In this document: in pieces, positions 35,309 to 59,464 of the stretch
Layout of the letters: the number at the start of each line of letters is the position of its first letter
Position numbering within the stretch: position 1 is the stretch's first letter
Source of the DNA: Candidatus Kuenenia stuttgartensis
GTDB lineage: Bacteria > Planctomycetota > Planctomycetia > Isosphaerales > Isosphaeraceae
DNA: 64,000 nt
Direction: 5' to 3'
Assembly: GCA_945865635.1 (NCBI GenBank)
Contig: CAMBEP010000004.1
Location: 62,001 to 126,000, forward strand
Notes under the pieces: generated by a model
Seen by the model: the letters and a program-made list of their open reading frames with translations, nothing else
Databases searched by the model: none
What the model was told of the DNA's origin: nothing
Made by a program: the position numbers and the translations under genes

Positions 35309-35489
35309 CTTGCCTGAATAATCGCCTGACTCATACAACTGCTAGAACCTTTCTGGATTACCTAAATATCAGAATCATTGCCTGGACTCTCTTGATGGTA
35401 TGACTCCTAATCGCTTAATTTGAGCTCATCCGGCTGTTTAGCTTGAGTTCCCATATCCATTCGACGCCCCCTTCAACAATCACAGTCAT

Positions 35490-35499: not shown

Positions 35500-37377
35500 T
35501 TGAACACGAATCGCCGACAGGTCCTGAAATACGGTTTGATTGCTCCATTTGCTGCCCTGAATGCTACACCAACCACTTTGAGTGCTGAGCAACTTGGTCG
35601 CGTCGTTCGATGTGCGATTTATCCACCGGTTGGATTTGCCCGAATTGGCAACTCGACTGAAGGTTATATTTTTGCTCCCGAAGTACCTGGAACTTTCCCT
35701 CCACCGGCCAAAGGTTACAAAGATTCAACGGGTCGAATTTATCCACAAGCCGTCAGATTCAGGGTATATGGATTCGACTCCAAGGGCCGGGTGGTGGGAG
35801 AACTCAACGCCAGTTTCGCTAAAATCCAGTGGAAAGTTCAGGTTGCCAACCGCAAAGCCGCTTGGTACGACTTTGATCAGGCGTTTGATATCCCTGAATC
35901 CGCAGATATCAAAAGCACTCCGCGAAATGCAAAATTCACTGGTAATGACCGATCAAAATTGGTGATTGATCCCGGCCCTCGAACGATTCAGGGCAGGAGT
36001 GTCAACCCGCACGGAAGCGTTGCAGAATATCAGTTCAGTGGTGGCGATTTTTGCGGAATTCCAGTGAATCTTGGCGATATTCGTACCGATCCACAAGGCC
36101 GATTGATCGTTTTGGGCGGTCAGGGCAAATCCGCTTCAATCGTTCCCAACCAGCCAGCTTATACGTTCGCAAATAATGACAACTGGTATGACGATACGTC
36201 AGATGGCCCAGTCGATGCCACTGTCACGTTCAATGGCCAGACCATGCAGGCTGAAGGGGCGTGGGTGGTCACGGCACCGCCGAACTATGCGCCCGGTATT
36301 CAAGGCGTGGTCACACTTTACGACGTCATGTACGAAGTCGGTATGTCGATGGGCATTGAGGCCCCTGCCCGCCCCTCGTTCACCCGCCAGATCATGCCAC
36401 TGCTTCAGCGTGTGGTGCAGTATCAATGGACAAACAAAGGCGTTTTGCAGCAATACGGCTGGGCGACTCCTGGGGATTTCATGAGGCCAGGATATTTGCT
36501 CAGGCTCGCCAGCCCAGCCCCCCGATTCAAGGCCTTGCGGGAAAGCGTACTGGCTCAATTTCGCAACCCTGATTTTGCAACCTACGAACCTGACAAACTT
36601 CCGCCGTGTTATGGCGATAATACGAATCTGCCTCCCACCTCTCCTCGACAATTCCAGGCGGTTTTGCAGAACCAGTACGTGTGGCTCCAACAATGGGCAG
36701 CCGGTGACTTTGTAGCGGATCTGCCGTCGAACTTAAAGCTCCCGCAATGGCCACCTTATCTCGAACAATTGCCGCTCTCGGAGCAGCCTGAGGCTTTGAA
36801 CAGAGCCTCGCTTGATAGCTGCTTGGGTGGCCCGTTCCACCCAGGATGTGAACTGACCTGGCCAGTGCGTCAGGAATTGCTTTACGACGCCCCGTTTCGG
36901 ATCGCCCGCCGCAATGGCCCTGAAAAAGATTTTGGCCCAGTGCTTACACAGCCCATTGCTCTTTCAGACACAGGCCCGCTCGATGGCAGTGGTCCAGGCG
37001 ATATTTCGCGATGGATGGCCGTTCCTTGGCAGTCAGATACATCAAGCTGCCTTTATGCTTATGACGAGCCGGAAGATGTTTACCTGCCGACATTCTGGCC
37101 TGCCCGGGTGCCAAATAACGTGCTCACTTCCAAAGATTTTGCGATTATCCAGAATCGTAGGTTACCACTTGCCAACCGGGTAGAAGCCTTCCGTCGAAGA
37201 GCGGACTGGTTCCGGCTAAAGCCAAAAAACGGTGCGGAAAAATTAAAAATGGTGAACAATTTCATCGCAAACTGGAGCCAGATCGGCGTTGTCAGCCTGC
37301 GGCCCGGCCCCGGCGATGATGCCAACTTCCCAAGCCATTTCTGGGTTGAAGAAGGCGCCAACTTCCAACCCTTATGA
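35500..37377 (+). CDS. LodA/GoxA-family cysteine-tryptophylquinone (CTQ) oxidase
   Basis: 625 residues from TTG 35500; a TTG at 35443 would add 19. The N-terminus NTNRRQVLKYGLIAPFAAL looks like a Tat signal. The family opening motif is AIYPPVGFARIGNS. The CTQ-forming residues can be placed: Cys441 in DSCLGGPFHPGCE and Trp510 in RWMAVPWQSDTSSC. Their separation (69 residues) is close to that in Marinomonas LodA (Cys516, Trp581). Known members oxidise L-lysine at the epsilon amine or glycine, releasing H2O2 and ammonia, and can be antibacterial. The next gene is the expected maturation flavoprotein, overlapping by four bases. Which amine is used cannot be told. Confidence 0.9.
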   Translation: MNTNRRQVLKYGLIAPFAALNATPTTLSAEQLGRVVRCAIYPPVGFARIGNSTEGYIFAPEVPGTFPPPAKGYKDSTGRIYPQAVRFRVYGFDSKGRVVGELNASFAKIQWKVQVANRKAAWYDFDQAFDIPESADIKSTPRNAKFTGNDRSKLVIDPGPRTIQGRSVNPHGSVAEYQFSGGDFCGIPVNLGDIRTDPQGRLIVLGGQGKSASIVPNQPAYTFANNDNWYDDTSDGPVDATVTFNGQTMQAEGAWVVTAPPNYAPGIQGVVTLYDVMYEVGMSMGIEAPARPSFTRQIMPLLQRVVQYQWTNKGVLQQYGWATPGDFMRPGYLLRLASPAPRFKALRESVLAQFRNPDFATYEPDKLPPCYGDNTNLPPTSPRQFQAVLQNQYVWLQQWAAGDFVADLPSNLKLPQWPPYLEQLPLSEQPEALNRASLDSCLGGPFHPGCELTWPVRQELLYDAPFRIARRNGPEKDFGPVLTQPIALSDTGPLDGSGPGDISRWMAVPWQSDTSSCLYAYDEPEDVYLPTFWPARVPNNVLTSKDFAIIQNRRLPLANRVEAFRRRADWFRLKPKNGAEKLKMVNNFIANWSQIGVVSLRPGPGDDANFPSHFWVEEGANFQPL

Positions 37378-38489
37378 CGGAAAAAGTGAATCGTCATCAA
37401 GAAAGACTGCCAATCGTAATCGCCGGTGGTGGTCCGGCTGGACTGGCGTCTGGAATTCGCCTGTGCCAGCTTGGATATCAGCCCCTGATTCTGGACCGAC
37501 CCCGAAAACCGGCTGAACGCAAGATTGGCGAATCACTGGCTCCGTCGGCTTGGGCGATCATTCATAAGCTGGGAATCAGTCATCTGGTCTCTGAGCCAAG
37601 CCATCTGGCCTGCCCTGGTCATCGGTCAAGCTGGGGCCACGATGGACTGATTTCAAAAGACTTTTTGTTCGACCCATACGGCCACGGCTGGCACCTGGAT
37701 CGCATTCAATTTGAGAAAGATCTTCGCAAAGAGGCTCAGATTGCTGGTTGCCAGTTTCTTGATCAGTCAATCCAGCGGCTGAAACATCTGGATTCAGGTG
37801 GTTGGGAAATCTCATCCGAGGCACTCCAGAATCCACTTCAGGCCAGCTTTCTGATCGATGCCACAGGTCGGCCGAGCACGGTGGCCCATGCGGCGGGTGC
37901 CAGAAGAATGCGGGAAGATCAACTCGTGGCGTGGTACGGGTTTCTGAAGCCTTCATCCAAACCATCAAAAGATGCCACTGGCTTGATTGAAGCCCGTCCT
38001 GAAGGCTGGTGGTACAGCGCCCTGTTGCCAGACGGTTGTATGGTCGCGGCATTTCTGACAGACCCAGACTTATTGCCGGCCACAGGTTTTCAAACATCTG
38101 CCGAATGGGAAAAGTGGCTTGATCTGACTGTTTATACCAAACACCAAATCAGAGCCAATGGCTATCGTTTGATCGACAATCCGCAGGTGGCTCCGGCTGG
38201 CAGTTCGATTCTTGACTCGATTCATGGCCCTGACTGGGTCGGGTGCGGAGATGCAGCAGCATCCTACGACCCACTGTCATCTCATGGAATTGCCACAGCA
38301 TTGGCCTCTGCCATGGACTCTGCTCAGGCTTTTCATGACCTTTCATGCGGCAATCCACTGACCATGGAACGATATGGCAATCGGGTCAATAAGAGTTTTG
38401 AACTTTACAAAAAGCTCCGAACCGAATTTTACGGGCAAGAGAATCGATGGCCGGATTCACCGTTTTGGAAGCGTAGGAACGGCCATTGA
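37374..38489 (+). CDS. LodB-like FAD-dependent maturation protein for the CTQ oxidase
   Basis: 371 residues. FAD-binding motif VIAGGGPAGLASGIRL at the N-terminus, the group motif RKIGESLAPSAW, and GCGDAAASYDPLSSHGIATAL near the C-terminus place it among tryptophan-halogenase-like/PHBH-fold flavoproteins. In characterised lod and gox operons the second gene is such a flavoprotein and is needed to build the quinone cofactor in the oxidase. The start overlaps the stop of the LodA-like gene (ATGA), which implies coupled translation. Its function here is inferred from family plus context. Confidence 0.88.
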   Translation: MTEKVNRHQERLPIVIAGGGPAGLASGIRLCQLGYQPLILDRPRKPAERKIGESLAPSAWAIIHKLGISHLVSEPSHLACPGHRSSWGHDGLISKDFLFDPYGHGWHLDRIQFEKDLRKEAQIAGCQFLDQSIQRLKHLDSGGWEISSEALQNPLQASFLIDATGRPSTVAHAAGARRMREDQLVAWYGFLKPSSKPSKDATGLIEARPEGWWYSALLPDGCMVAAFLTDPDLLPATGFQTSAEWEKWLDLTVYTKHQIRANGYRLIDNPQVAPAGSSILDSIHGPDWVGCGDAAASYDPLSSHGIATALASAMDSAQAFHDLSCGNPLTMERYGNRVNKSFELYKKLRTEFYGQENRWPDSPFWKRRNGH

Positions 38490-42310: not shown

Positions 42311-43447
42311 TCATGATCGCACGGCTTCATCCCTTCTGGGAGCCGCCTCACGAGCGACGCTGTAGCCATCGAGTGCGATTCGGGTGGGTTGGCCGGTGAT
42401 CAGGTCGGCCATGGATTCAGCGGTTCCGGGCGAAAGCGAAAGGCCGGCTCGCTGGTGGCCTGTTGCGACATAAAGCCCTGAAAAACCTGGCACCTGACCA
42501 AGGTAAGGGCGTGAATCCTTTGAGCCAGGCCGGAAGCCGCACCAATGGTTGACTATGCGCGACTGGGCCAGCTTCGGGACGAGTGAGATGGCCTCGTTCC
42601 AGAGATAGCCCTTGGCCGAGTCCGTCAGCGAATCTTCAAAACCGACATGTTCTTCGGTGGCGCCCGCCAGGACGAGGCCTTCGTCGCGTGGGACAAGATA
42701 GCACTTTTCGTGCTCGATGATTCGGTGGATCAAAATTTGGCCGGGGTCAAGCAATAACATTTGTCCTTTTACAGGAGTCGTAGGCATATGGATACCGAGA
42801 TTGCCGAGCAATGGGCCTGACCAGGCTCCGGCGGCGACGACGATCTGCCTGGCGGCGAATTCTCCGTGATTGGTTTTGATGCCTTCAATGGAGTTGTTTT
42901 TGACGAGTAGTTGTTGGATGGGCACGTGTGGGTGCATGGTGACACCGAGATTCTGGCATGCCGATTGGAGGGCTCGGAGGTGCCATGGGTTTCGGATTTG
43001 GGCACGTTCCGGGAGATAAAAGGCTCGCGAAAAGTCTTTGGTGAGTTCTGGCTCGAGTTGGGCGGCACGAATGTCGTCGACCAGTTCAAAACGAATGCCT
43101 TGTTTTCGCCATCGGCCGGTCATGGATTGGAGGGCTGGCTCTTCTCTGGAGTTCAGAGCGACATCGAGGCCGCCTGAGATGCGGAATCCGTTGTCGATTC
43201 CAGTTTGATCGAGCAATCGCTGGGACCAGATTGGGTAAAGGTCTGCCGACCGGGCGCGGAGCATGCAGGTGGGGTCGTTGAGGTCTTTGGCGCGGTGTGG
43301 TGGTGGGACAAGGCCAGCGCCCGCCCAAGAGGACGCGCGGCCGATTGGCCCTTGGTCAAACACTTGGCTGACCAGCCCGCGACCAGCCAATTCCCAAGCC
43401 AGGGAGAGGCCGATGACTCCTCCGCCGATGATGATCAGGTCCGCCAT
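42311..43447 (-). CDS. thiO: ThiO-like FAD-dependent glycine oxidase
   Basis: 378 residues from the ATG at 43447. FAD motif MADLIIIGGGVIGLSLAWELAGRG at the N-terminus; D-amino-acid-oxidase-type features are WAGAGLV near residue 45, VVAAGAWSG, VKGQMLLLDPG, and the C-terminal CGFRPGSKDSRPYLG and VATGHQRAGLSLSPGTAE. In thiamine synthesis ThiO turns glycine into the imine used for the thiazole ring; similar proteins act on other amines. No thi genes adjoin. A start 20 codons earlier (43507) is possible but lacks a better ribosome site. Confidence 0.85.
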   Translation of the reverse strand: MADLIIIGGGVIGLSLAWELAGRGLVSQVFDQGPIGRASSWAGAGLVPPPHRAKDLNDPTCMLRARSADLYPIWSQRLLDQTGIDNGFRISGGLDVALNSREEPALQSMTGRWRKQGIRFELVDDIRAAQLEPELTKDFSRAFYLPERAQIRNPWHLRALQSACQNLGVTMHPHVPIQQLLVKNNSIEGIKTNHGEFAARQIVVAAGAWSGPLLGNLGIHMPTTPVKGQMLLLDPGQILIHRIIEHEKCYLVPRDEGLVLAGATEEHVGFEDSLTDSAKGYLWNEAISLVPKLAQSRIVNHWCGFRPGSKDSRPYLGQVPGFSGLYVATGHQRAGLSLSPGTAESMADLITGQPTRIALDGYSVAREAAPRRDEAVRS

Positions 43448-43696
43448 GCCAATAGGATTTCTTGTGCAGTGTCGTAGGGTCGCGACAGGACTTGGTCGAG
43501 AAGTCATTGCCTGCGTGTAGGCCGTTGAATCGCTTCCCGATTATGAATATAAACAAATTTGGTCTGAAGCCGCCAACGATAAGCGGATTTTTCTTGTTGT
43601 GGTGCCTTGTGGAGAACGCTTGGTGTTGGCAAGATATGAGAAGTACTCGTGAATCCTCTATCCACCGATGGCGTCCGCAGAATCAAAAAAAACATC

Positions 43697-55400: not shown

Positions 55401-55675
55401 TCGATTGTTTTCAGGTGGAATGTTTTTTGGCCATCAGGTTGCCAATCCGGCTTGATTGATAGGCTTGCAGTGATTTTATCGGTGTGAAAGATTGGTGAAA
55501 AATCCAACAAATGCCGAATCATGGTCGGTGGGTACTTGATTCGGCTTGTGTGCTCGATCAAGATATCCGAGTAGCTTTCATCCCTCATCACAACCGATAC
55601 GACCCAAATTCAGACACCTTTGATCGACAGTGGTCGTCTTTCGATTGACATGTGAACCCGTGGGGAACAATCCCA

Positions 55676-56302
55676 ATGCGCGACAACGCTTCCAGTTTGA
55701 ATTCCAGTAATCGCCGTGATTTTCTTCGCGGATCGGGTGTTGCTGCGGCAACGGCCGTATTAACCCAGACCGCTCAGGTCGGAATGGATGAAGCCTCAGC
55801 CGAAGCTCTTGCAGCTCAGGATGTGGCGGTCCAGTCAGGCTCGATGAAGATCACGCTTCAGGTCAATGGTCAGTCCATGACATCCGAGGTCGAGCCGCGC
55901 AGCACATTGCTGGACGTGCTCAGGCACCGTCTGGATGTCACGGGCCCCAAGCGTGTGTGCGATCGTTCAAGCTGTGGTGCCTGCACCATATTGATCAATG
56001 GCCAGTCGGTCTATAGCTGCACGACACTGGCTGTGGCGGCCCAGGGCAAAGAGATTCGGACCTTGGAATCGTTTGACACCGGCCCGAAAAGTGTGGCGCA
56101 TGCGTTCCACCAGAACGATGGCCTGATGTGCGGTTATTGCACACCAGGATTTGTCACGGCGTGTCAGGCCCTGCTAGAGAAGAATCCCAACCCGACTTTG
56201 GAAGAAGTCAAAAAAGGGCTGGACGGAAATATCTGTCGATGTGGAACTTATGTCGGTGTCATCCAGGCTGCTCTGGATGCTGCCAAGGCCATCAAAGTCT
56301 AA
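55676..56302 (+). CDS. Molybdenum hydroxylase [2Fe-2S] subunit, Tat-exported
   Basis: 208 residues. A twin-arginine signal (NSSNRRDFLRGSGVAAATA) precedes a plant-type ferredoxin domain (Cys95, Cys100, Cys103, Cys115: CDRSSCGAC...C) and a helical [2Fe-2S] domain (Cys152, Cys155, Cys187, Cys189: CGYC...CRC). This is the electron-transfer subunit of xanthine-dehydrogenase-family enzymes. The Tat signal indicates a periplasmic enzyme, as in E. coli PaoABC, with the partner subunits carried along. ATG 55676 is preferred over an earlier GTG because a GGGGA site precedes it. Confidence 0.93.
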   Translation: MRDNASSLNSSNRRDFLRGSGVAAATAVLTQTAQVGMDEASAEALAAQDVAVQSGSMKITLQVNGQSMTSEVEPRSTLLDVLRHRLDVTGPKRVCDRSSCGACTILINGQSVYSCTTLAVAAQGKEIRTLESFDTGPKSVAHAFHQNDGLMCGYCTPGFVTACQALLEKNPNPTLEEVKKGLDGNICRCGTYVGVIQAALDAAKAIKV

Positions 56303-56326
56303 TATTACGGGAAAGGAGCAAACGAC

Positions 56327-58471
56327 ATGGCTGCGAACTCTTGGCCCGAACAGACCAAGCTGATCAACACGCGGATCCCGCGTCTGGACGGCATTGCAAA
56401 AGCTTCTGGGAAAGCCAAATACCCATCGGATGAACGACCTGACGGGATGCTTTTTGGGGTGGTGCTTTACAGCCTTCACCCGCATGCCAGAATCAAGTCG
56501 CTGGACACCACGGTTGCCGAAAAAATGGCTGGCGTGAAGGCGATTGAAGTGATTGCCGGCCCGGGCAAGATCGTCCGGTATCATGGCGACGACATTGCCA
56601 TCGTAGCGGCCGAAACAGAAGAGCAAGCCCGCGATGCCGTGCGGGCCATCAAGGTGGAATATGAGATTCTGCCACATGCGGCAACAGAATTGCAGGCGAT
56701 GGCGGCCAATGCGCCCGAGGTTGTCAAAGGTGGCAATGTGCGTAAGGGGCGTGCCCAGATCACTGGCAAGCCGGATGACGCCTTTGCGAAGGCAGATGGC
56801 ATGATTGAGGCGGCTTATTCGGTACCAGTGGTCACGCACGTCTGCCTGGAAACACATGGCCTGACGGCCCGCTGGGACGACAAAAATCACATCACCGCCT
56901 GGGCCAGCACGCAAGCCGTGACCGCCACGGCCAATGAGCTTGCGGAATCGAACGAGATTCCAGTCAGCAACGTGACCGTTTTGACGGAAGTGATGGGTGG
57001 CGGATTTGGTTCCAAATTCGGGGCCGACATCTGGGGCACCTCAGCGGCCCGGCTTTCAAAGAAGGTCAATGGCCGTCCGGTCAAGATTTTCCTCGACCGG
57101 ATTCAGGAACACCTGGCCGGTGGCAATCGTCCGTCCGCCTCTGCCAAGATTAAACTGGCAGGCACCAAGGACGGCAAGATCACGGCCATGGTGGCTCAGA
57201 CGCACGGCACAGGTGGGGTGGCTCGTGGAGCCCAGTTCCCCCTGCCCTATGTTTACAGCATTGCCAATTTCAGCCGCGAGCATTCGGATGTTTTCGTGAA
57301 TGGTGGAAATGCCCGAGCCATGCGAGCCCCCGGTCACCCGGAAGGCTGTATCATCATGGAGTCGGCAATTGATGATCTGGCGGCCAAACTTGGCCTTGAT
57401 CCAGTCGAGATTCGCAAGGCGAACCTGGCACCTGCGGACTTCCGGACCAAGATCTATCTTGATGAGATTGCGATTGGTGCTGAACTGATCGGCTGGAAGC
57501 AGAACTTCAAGCCGCGTGGGACTCAGAAGGGGATCATGCGACGTGGTCTTGGTCTGGCCCTGCATCAGTGGGGTGGTGGCGGAGCGAACGACAAGCAGGT
57601 CAGTTGCACGATTTCATCCGATAGCACCATTGAGCTGAAGTCGGCCACTCAGGATATTGGAACAGGTATCCGGACGGTTCTGGCGATCATTGCCGCCGAA
57701 GTTTTTGGGCTGAAGCCAACGGATATCAAGTCCAACATAGGTAACAGCACGTTCCCACCGGGTCAGTCGTCGGGTGGCTCGACGACCACACCGTCGATGA
57801 GCCCTCCGTGTTACAATGCCTGTCTGGAAGCACGTGACGAGCTTTTCAAAAAGATTGCTCCAAGCCTTCCTGGCAGTCCTTCGGCAACGGATCTTTCACT
57901 GGCTGATGGCCAGTTGTTGATCAAAGGCCAGCCGGCCATGAGCTTCAAGGATGCGTGCCGCAAGATTGGGATGAACTCGATCTCGACACTTGGCAAGTCG
58001 TCACCGGGATTGGCGTCCAATGGTGTTGGCGGTGTCCAGTTTGTGGATGTGACCGTCGACACGGAAACGGGCGTGGTCAAGCTCAACAAAATCGTTGCAG
58101 TGCAGGATTCAGGCCTGATCATTGACAAGCTGACATGGGAAAGCCAGGTCTTGGGTGGTGTCATTGGTGGCTTGAACTATGGCATGTTTGAAGAGCGGAT
58201 TGTGGATCCGACTTCAGGCCGGATGCTGAATCCGGATATGGAGCTGTATCAACTGGCCGGAGCTTCGGATATTCCGGAGATCATTGTGCATGCCTATGAG
58301 CCCGCTGACCAGAAGAAGCGTGGTGTGATCGGCATTGGCGAGCCTCCGACCATAGGCACGGCCGCTGCGATCGGCAATGCTGTTTCCAATGCCATTGGCG
58401 TGCGTGTCACGCATTGGCCCATGACCCCGATGAATGTTTTAAATGCTCTGGCTCAAGAAGGGAAGGCCTGA
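56327..58471 (+). CDS. Molybdenum hydroxylase large subunit (molybdopterin-binding)
   Basis: 714 residues without its own export signal. The N-terminal ald-xan-dh domain (IPRLDGIAKASGKAKYPSDE) and the Mo-binding domains are clear: VMGGGFGSKF, NARAMRAPGHPEGCIIMES, ALHQWGGGGANDKQV, QSSGGSTTTPSM, and Glu672 in GVIGIGEPPTIG, matching the catalytic Glu of the family. It oxidises an aldehyde or heterocycle; the substrate is not predictable. AAAGGAG lies eight bases before the ATG. It is 24 bases from the Fe-S gene and six from the FAD gene. Confidence 0.94.
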   Translation: MAANSWPEQTKLINTRIPRLDGIAKASGKAKYPSDERPDGMLFGVVLYSLHPHARIKSLDTTVAEKMAGVKAIEVIAGPGKIVRYHGDDIAIVAAETEEQARDAVRAIKVEYEILPHAATELQAMAANAPEVVKGGNVRKGRAQITGKPDDAFAKADGMIEAAYSVPVVTHVCLETHGLTARWDDKNHITAWASTQAVTATANELAESNEIPVSNVTVLTEVMGGGFGSKFGADIWGTSAARLSKKVNGRPVKIFLDRIQEHLAGGNRPSASAKIKLAGTKDGKITAMVAQTHGTGGVARGAQFPLPYVYSIANFSREHSDVFVNGGNARAMRAPGHPEGCIIMESAIDDLAAKLGLDPVEIRKANLAPADFRTKIYLDEIAIGAELIGWKQNFKPRGTQKGIMRRGLGLALHQWGGGGANDKQVSCTISSDSTIELKSATQDIGTGIRTVLAIIAAEVFGLKPTDIKSNIGNSTFPPGQSSGGSTTTPSMSPPCYNACLEARDELFKKIAPSLPGSPSATDLSLADGQLLIKGQPAMSFKDACRKIGMNSISTLGKSSPGLASNGVGGVQFVDVTVDTETGVVKLNKIVAVQDSGLIIDKLTWESQVLGGVIGGLNYGMFEERIVDPTSGRMLNPDMELYQLAGASDIPEIIVHAYEPADQKKRGVIGIGEPPTIGTAAAIGNAVSNAIGVRVTHWPMTPMNVLNALAQEGKA

Positions 58472-58477
58472 TCAACC

Positions 58478-59464
58478 ATGAAAGCCTTTGAATACGTAGG
58501 CGCGAAGAGCGTCGATCAGGCCGTCAAGGCCCTCACATCTGGTTCCGCCGCAATGGCTGGCGGAACAGACCTGATCAACCGGATGAAAGATTATGTCACC
58601 AGCCCGGATCGCGTTGTCTATCTCAACGATGTCAAGGAACTGGCAGGCATTTCTGGCGACTCCGGCACGGGATTGACCATCCTCTCTGGAACCCGTCTTT
58701 CGGACTTGCTGGCTAACGACTCGATCAAAAAGTCGTATCCGGCGCTCTGGCAGACAGCCAGCGAAGTGGGTACTCCACAAATTCGTAACATGGCCACTAT
58801 CGGCGGCAATCTCATGCAGCATCCACGCTGCTGGTATTACCGGTCTGGGTTTGGCCTTATTCCCAAGTCTTCCGATGGCAAGCACATGCTGCGGGAAGGC
58901 GACAATCGGTACGCGTCGATCTTCATGACCGATGGCGATGCCCTTTACGCCCATCCATCAAGCCTTGCCATCCCTTTGATTGCTTTGGGGGCCAAGGCCA
59001 CTTTGATAGGCCCTGATGGGGAGCGGACGATGGATGTGGCGGAACTCTATAAAGTTCCTACATCCAATACGGAGAGCCCGTTTGCATCCAGGCCGGGGGA
59101 AATTCTTAAAAGTGTTTCCGTGCCTGCTGCGGCTGGCAAGAATGGCTCGTTTGAGGCTCGCCACAAGCAGGCCCACGACTGGCCATTGGTCATGGCGTCC
59201 GCAAGCCTGACATTTTCAGGTGACACGGTTTCTGATGCCCGTGTGGTTGTCTATGGTGTGGCTCCTTTGCCTTGGCGCTCCAAAGCGGCAGAAGAGGCCA
59301 TTAAAGGCAAATCGGTGACACTCGATTCGGCACGTGCTGCTGGCTCGGCAGCGGCTGAGGGTGCCAAGCCTCTCTCGATGAATGGCTACAAGGTCGCCAT
59401 GCTCAAGACGGTCATCACGCGCACCCTGTGTGTGACGGTCGGAAATCGGTATTGGGAGGTCTGA
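58478..59464 (+). CDS. Molybdenum hydroxylase FAD-binding subunit
   Basis: 328 residues. The FAD site is shown by MAGGTDLINRMKD and RNMATIGGNLMQ, followed by the C-terminal CO-dehydrogenase flavoprotein domain (MASASLTFSGDTVSDARVVVYGVAPLPWRSKAAEEAI). After GGNLMQHPRCWYYR the members related to PaoB normally carry further Cys ligands for a [4Fe-4S] cluster; here only the Cys in RCWYYR remains and the positions before AHPS are non-Cys (GDALYAHPS). The extra cluster is therefore probably absent. It completes the enzyme with the two preceding genes. Confidence 0.92.
   Translation: MKAFEYVGAKSVDQAVKALTSGSAAMAGGTDLINRMKDYVTSPDRVVYLNDVKELAGISGDSGTGLTILSGTRLSDLLANDSIKKSYPALWQTASEVGTPQIRNMATIGGNLMQHPRCWYYRSGFGLIPKSSDGKHMLREGDNRYASIFMTDGDALYAHPSSLAIPLIALGAKATLIGPDGERTMDVAELYKVPTSNTESPFASRPGEILKSVSVPAAAGKNGSFEARHKQAHDWPLVMASASLTFSGDTVSDARVVVYGVAPLPWRSKAAEEAIKGKSVTLDSARAAGSAAAEGAKPLSMNGYKVAMLKTVITRTLCVTVGNRYWEV

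Follow-up and report, generated by a model that had tools for sequence, protein, structure and literature searches.

A lodAB/goxAB-type gene pair of a planctomycete predicted to encode a Tat-exported cysteine tryptophylquinone oxidase and its flavoprotein partner

Two overlapping genes on the forward strand of the window (the whole stretch of 64,000 nucleotides that was analysed) very probably form a lodAB/goxAB-type operon whose first product is an H2O2-making oxidase carrying a cysteine tryptophylquinone (CTQ) derived from Cys517 and Trp533, completed by the partner protein and exported by the Tat pathway. The first gene would give rise to an oxidase precursor, and the joining and oxygenation of its Cys517 and Trp533 would yield CTQ. 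On the model of LodA and GoxA, Asp513 would aid the first hydroxylation of the tryptophan and a cytosolic FAD protein encoded by the adjoining gene would finish the cofactor. The folded enzyme would then leave the cytoplasm via Tat. Its substrate, a primary amine or an amino acid, would be oxidised outside to an aldehyde or an oxo-acid with release of ammonia and H2O2. Cofactor formation, the order of events, export and the oxidase chemistry are what we infer here. Killing and biofilm dispersal, roles that the initial annotation of this DNA had evoked, would be carry-overs from the distant group I and II enzymes.

The gene pair itself is real and represents an ordinary two-gene set of a known family. 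The lodA/goxA-like gene (35500..37377, + strand; hereafter lodA-like) encodes 625 aa from a TTG start, and the lodB/goxB-like gene (37374..38489, + strand; lodB-like) encodes a 371 aa FAD protein with a predicted role in cofactor maturation. Both frames were found as initially described, including their 4-base overlap formed by the ATGA at 37374-37377. We place the start of the lodA-like gene at 35500 because a Shine–Dalgarno-like AGGTG lies a few nucleotides upstream of the TTG codon and because the copy of a sister species starts at the equivalent place, with a possible GTG codon. An alternative TTG start at 35443 was dropped on these grounds and also because a signal peptide begins right at 35500. 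The window further encodes PSCyt2, PSD1 and DUF1501 proteins, in agreement with the planctomycete host that had been proposed.

The lodA-like product is a LodA/GoxA-family protein, with a match far beyond chance. It scores 263 bits against LodA_N (3e-78, cut-off 26.3) and 133 bits against LodA_C (1e-38, cut-off 25), and its best sequence matches among solved chains are GoxA and LodA. The opening motif of the LodA family, noticed from the start, is indeed present in the N-terminal part (IYPPVGFARIGNS). All 50 structure hits with E ≤ 0.001 obtained with the AlphaFold2 model (pLDDT 87.9, pTM 0.90) are GoxA or LodA; GoxA gives the best TM-score (0.76 by query length), followed by LodA (0.64).

The adjoining gene encodes a protein with a CmlS/QhpG-like FAD fold. 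Its two best profile models are GoxB and LodB (NF038174 and NF038171, 308 bits with 7e-92 and 239 bits with 1e-70, respectively), yet both scores stay below the 400-bit cut-off, and the QhpG model gives 178 bits. The structural model (pLDDT 93.2) matches CmlS and QhpG best, with TM-scores of 0.84 and 0.78. Profile scores and model thus bear out the flavoprotein partner of the initial annotation as one of the GoxB/LodB/QhpG type. LodA and GoxA acquire their CTQ only with the help of LodB and GoxB, and QhpG dihydroxylates the peptidyl Trp of a CTQ precursor (PMC7876137). QhpG (7ctq, a peptidyl tryptophan dihydroxylase) shares the FAD monooxygenase fold with the partner, which is likewise predicted to act on a CTQ precursor. 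However, the score of the partner with the QhpG model is below the cut-off of 240 bits, and the CTQ protein encoded beside it belongs to the oxidase family while that of QhpG is a QhpC-type subunit. The LodB-type partners on an Azospirillum plasmid (L110) and a Pseudoalteromonas plasmid (L107) are annotated as tryptophan 7-halogenase and are probably misnamed; on the former a ferritin-like gene lies just upstream of the LodA-like gene.

CTQ, formed by Cys517 and Trp533, is the best prediction that can be made for the cofactor from the alignments. The family alignment comprises 107 rows, 105 of them ungapped at the cofactor and maturation positions, and LodA residues are given in native (PDB) numbering taken from 3weu via Pseudoalteromonas LodA, which scores 1132 bits on the LodA model. 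In LodA, C516 and D512 lie within PWQADFFNC, and of the two W in YSYWWPP the second one is W581; the equivalents in the lodA-like protein are C517 and D513 in PWQSDTSSC and W533 in PTFWPA. The predicted CTQ cysteine (codon 37048..37050, + strand), the predicted CTQ tryptophan (37096..37098, + strand) and the maturation aspartate Asp513 (37036..37038, + strand; LodA Asp512, GoxA Asp678) are each invariant in 105/105 ungapped rows. Conservation of both CTQ positions throughout the LodA-like proteins had been noted in a survey from 2015 (PMC4417212). Together with the LodA_N/LodA_C matches and the fold, these invariant residues uphold the original assignment as a likely LodA-like CTQ oxidase. Apart from the N-terminal signal, the model has low confidence only at residues 533-535 (37096-37104), which include the predicted CTQ tryptophan; the unmodelled crosslink may be the reason.

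Judged by its sequence, the lodA-like protein is an equivalog of neither LodA nor GoxA; in the tree it appears to fall on the side of the uncharacterised group III. We do not call it LodA or GoxA proper since it falls below both equivalog cut-offs, with 476 bits for GoxA (NF038173, cut-off 750) and 216 bits for LodA (NF038172, cut-off 600). GoxA/GoxB, known from Marinomonas mediterranea and from P. luteoviolacea structures (e.g. 6byw), is a CTQ glycine oxidase, and it is unlikely, though the best of the alternatives, that the lodA-like protein is a true GoxA specific for glycine. GoxA is the best NCBIfam model, and the two proteins have in common the fold, an adjoining flavoprotein gene, a Tat signal (found in Marinomonas and Martelella GoxA) and a near-equal spacing of the CTQ cysteine and tryptophan (16 residues here and 15 in GoxA, C682/W697). 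GoxA Phe316 and His583 of the pocket and the conserved GoxA Asp678 all have equivalents, namely Phe223 (36166..36168, + strand), His447 (36838..36840, + strand) and Asp513, whereas LodA has Tyr211 and Cys448 at the first two positions. However, Phe and His occur there in 90/107 and 94/107 family rows, and a pair so common across the family is weak evidence for GoxA identity. Martelella GoxA reaches 1189 bits on the GoxA model, far from the 476 bits obtained here, and according to the alignment the lodA-like protein lacks the loop with GoxA Tyr766 and His767, two residues known from PDB titles that name them as mutated sites. Finally, in our own tree, which is distinct from that of PMC4417212, the clade of the query includes species listed as group III in that survey and excludes the long-branched Martelella GoxA with an SH-aLRT of 97.

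Within this clade the query sits on its own branch. A sister species with 70% identity groups with it in the trees, and six sequences from Chloroflexota/Thermomicrobiota, about 50% identical, are found nearby; tree support for the exact sister group is weak. The closest large clade, at about 44-48% identity, is that of the group III LodA-like proteins (PMC4417212), for example those of Streptomyces afghaniensis and Oceanospirillum beijerinckii. They have the same invariant residues, but many of them carry an N-terminal catalase-type fusion, which the query lacks; its own N-terminus bears a Tat-like signal.

Export of the oxidase by Tat is likely, judging from the N-terminal sequence. Residues 1-29 (35500..35586, + strand; the cleavage end is approximate) resemble a Tat signal peptide, with NRRQVLKYG followed by a hydrophobic stretch. 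The Tat-like motif, which had been pointed out before, lies at the start codon and is present in 8/8 of the sequences formed by the query, the sister species and the six Chloroflexota/Thermomicrobiota relatives (e.g. MNRRQLLKYGAFG), and the genome encodes TatC. Shuffling the protein's own N-terminus produces the motif by itself in about 3% of cases. A real CTQ oxidase that stays in the cytoplasm, its arginine pair being a non-working Tat signal, would agree with the lack of a recognisable Tat motif in most of the family; conservation of motif and hydrophobic stretch at the start codon in the nearest relatives, and the presence of TatC, make this distinctly improbable. Tat-signalled members of the family are not new, as a twin-arginine signal has been published for Marinomonas GoxA, an enzyme that was also detected in the supernatants of cultures (PMC3948610), and most group II LodA-like proteins have Tat signals (PMC4417212).

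Tat export of the oxidase also bears on the order of events. In the model of the flavoprotein the first strand of the FAD domain begins at residue 12, which leaves no room for a signal peptide. If the predictions of a Tat-exported oxidase and a cytosolic partner both hold, it would follow by inference that CTQ formation precedes export. The published Tat signals already imply as much for Marinomonas GoxA and for the majority of group II.

LodA/LodB of M. mediterranea (3weu/2ymw) is a lysine epsilon-oxidase. The family domains, the CTQ cysteine and tryptophan, the maturation aspartate and the operon order are shared with the pair described here, but a lysine epsilon-oxidase like LodA is very unlikely given the score of 216 bits and the lack of LodA Tyr211 and Cys448. 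Missing as well is the long insertion between the CTQ cysteine and tryptophan that accounts for the spacing of 65 residues in LodA. The query also differs by its Tat-like signal, which is absent from the Pseudoalteromonas LodA gene taken for the comparison.

There is next to no chance that the cofactor is made from Cys441 and Trp510, as the initial annotation had it: both residues are present and their distance of 69 is numerically near LodA's 65, but their counterparts in LodA are Cys442 and Trp509, neither of which belongs to the cofactor, instead of Cys516 and Trp581, and position 441 is not a cysteine in 15/107 family rows. The similarity of the spacings is a coincidence, the real value being 16. 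It had been stated that other residues at the CTQ positions would speak against the whole proposal. To the letter this is what the alignment to LodA and GoxA gives, because the residues named were wrong; in substance the proposal stands, because a cysteine and a tryptophan do occupy the real CTQ positions. The correction changes which residues a mutagenesis study of the lodA-like protein would target.

The comparison of active sites forecasts that the lodA-like protein should not act like LodA and need not act like GoxA. In the literature found, lysine- and glycine-type activities are the only ones established for the family, and for group III LodA-like proteins we found no reported activity, including in PMC4417212. 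We consider the chances evenly balanced that the planctomycete genus and its Chloroflexota/Thermomicrobiota relatives represent a branch of Tat-exported CTQ oxidases whose substrate is neither lysine nor glycine, which would be a third activity of the family. The pair adds a compact 625-aa member with a Tat-like signal from an uncharacterised part of the family.

Planctomycete members of the family have been known since 2015, when they were counted in the survey (PMC4417212). They are rare in the phylum: we detected LodA-like genes in 4/392 genomes sampled, compared to 3/40 in that survey. The genome under study has one LodA-like gene and one strong GoxB-like gene. LodA-like members from its own taxonomic family are spread over several branches of the tree, which fits patchy gain and loss. 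Four Thermomicrobiota/Chloroflexota loci (L013, L014, L016 and L017) have lodA-like genes without an adjacent intact lodB: in L013 lodB is split by a frameshift, in L014 it lies on a different contig, and in the genomes of L016 and L017 no lodB above 50 bits was found. Since these are metagenome bins, the missing genes may reflect incompleteness. A LodA-like gene with 43% identity is also present on an IMG/VR contig (L112, 5001-6725), which is listed as viral and may be host DNA.

In the window the pair is flanked by a gene of the SDR type and by a PAS-GGDEF gene in convergent orientation. Gene order and the 4-nt overlap are retained in the sister species, while all other neighbours differ; the pairing is the only conserved feature because the sister-species pair sits among unrelated genes, and a functional link to the PAS-GGDEF or SDR neighbours was ruled out on this basis. 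At the pair, promoter and terminator scans gave nothing above chance and PADLOC gave no match for anti-phage defence. Third-position GC is 0.53 in lodA and 0.50 in lodB, compared to 0.58-0.68 in most neighbours. This is a weak sign of foreign origin because the SDR gene is similarly low (0.53), and a recent foreign origin was not retained.

Two further oxidoreductase loci were noted in the window. A three-gene molybdopterin (xanthine-dehydrogenase-like) set occupies 55652-59464, and its small subunit starts with the Tat-like NRRDFLRG. A gene for an unrelated ThiO-type FAD glycine oxidase (282 bits, cut-off 251) lies at 42311-43507, some 4 kb away from the lodA-like gene.
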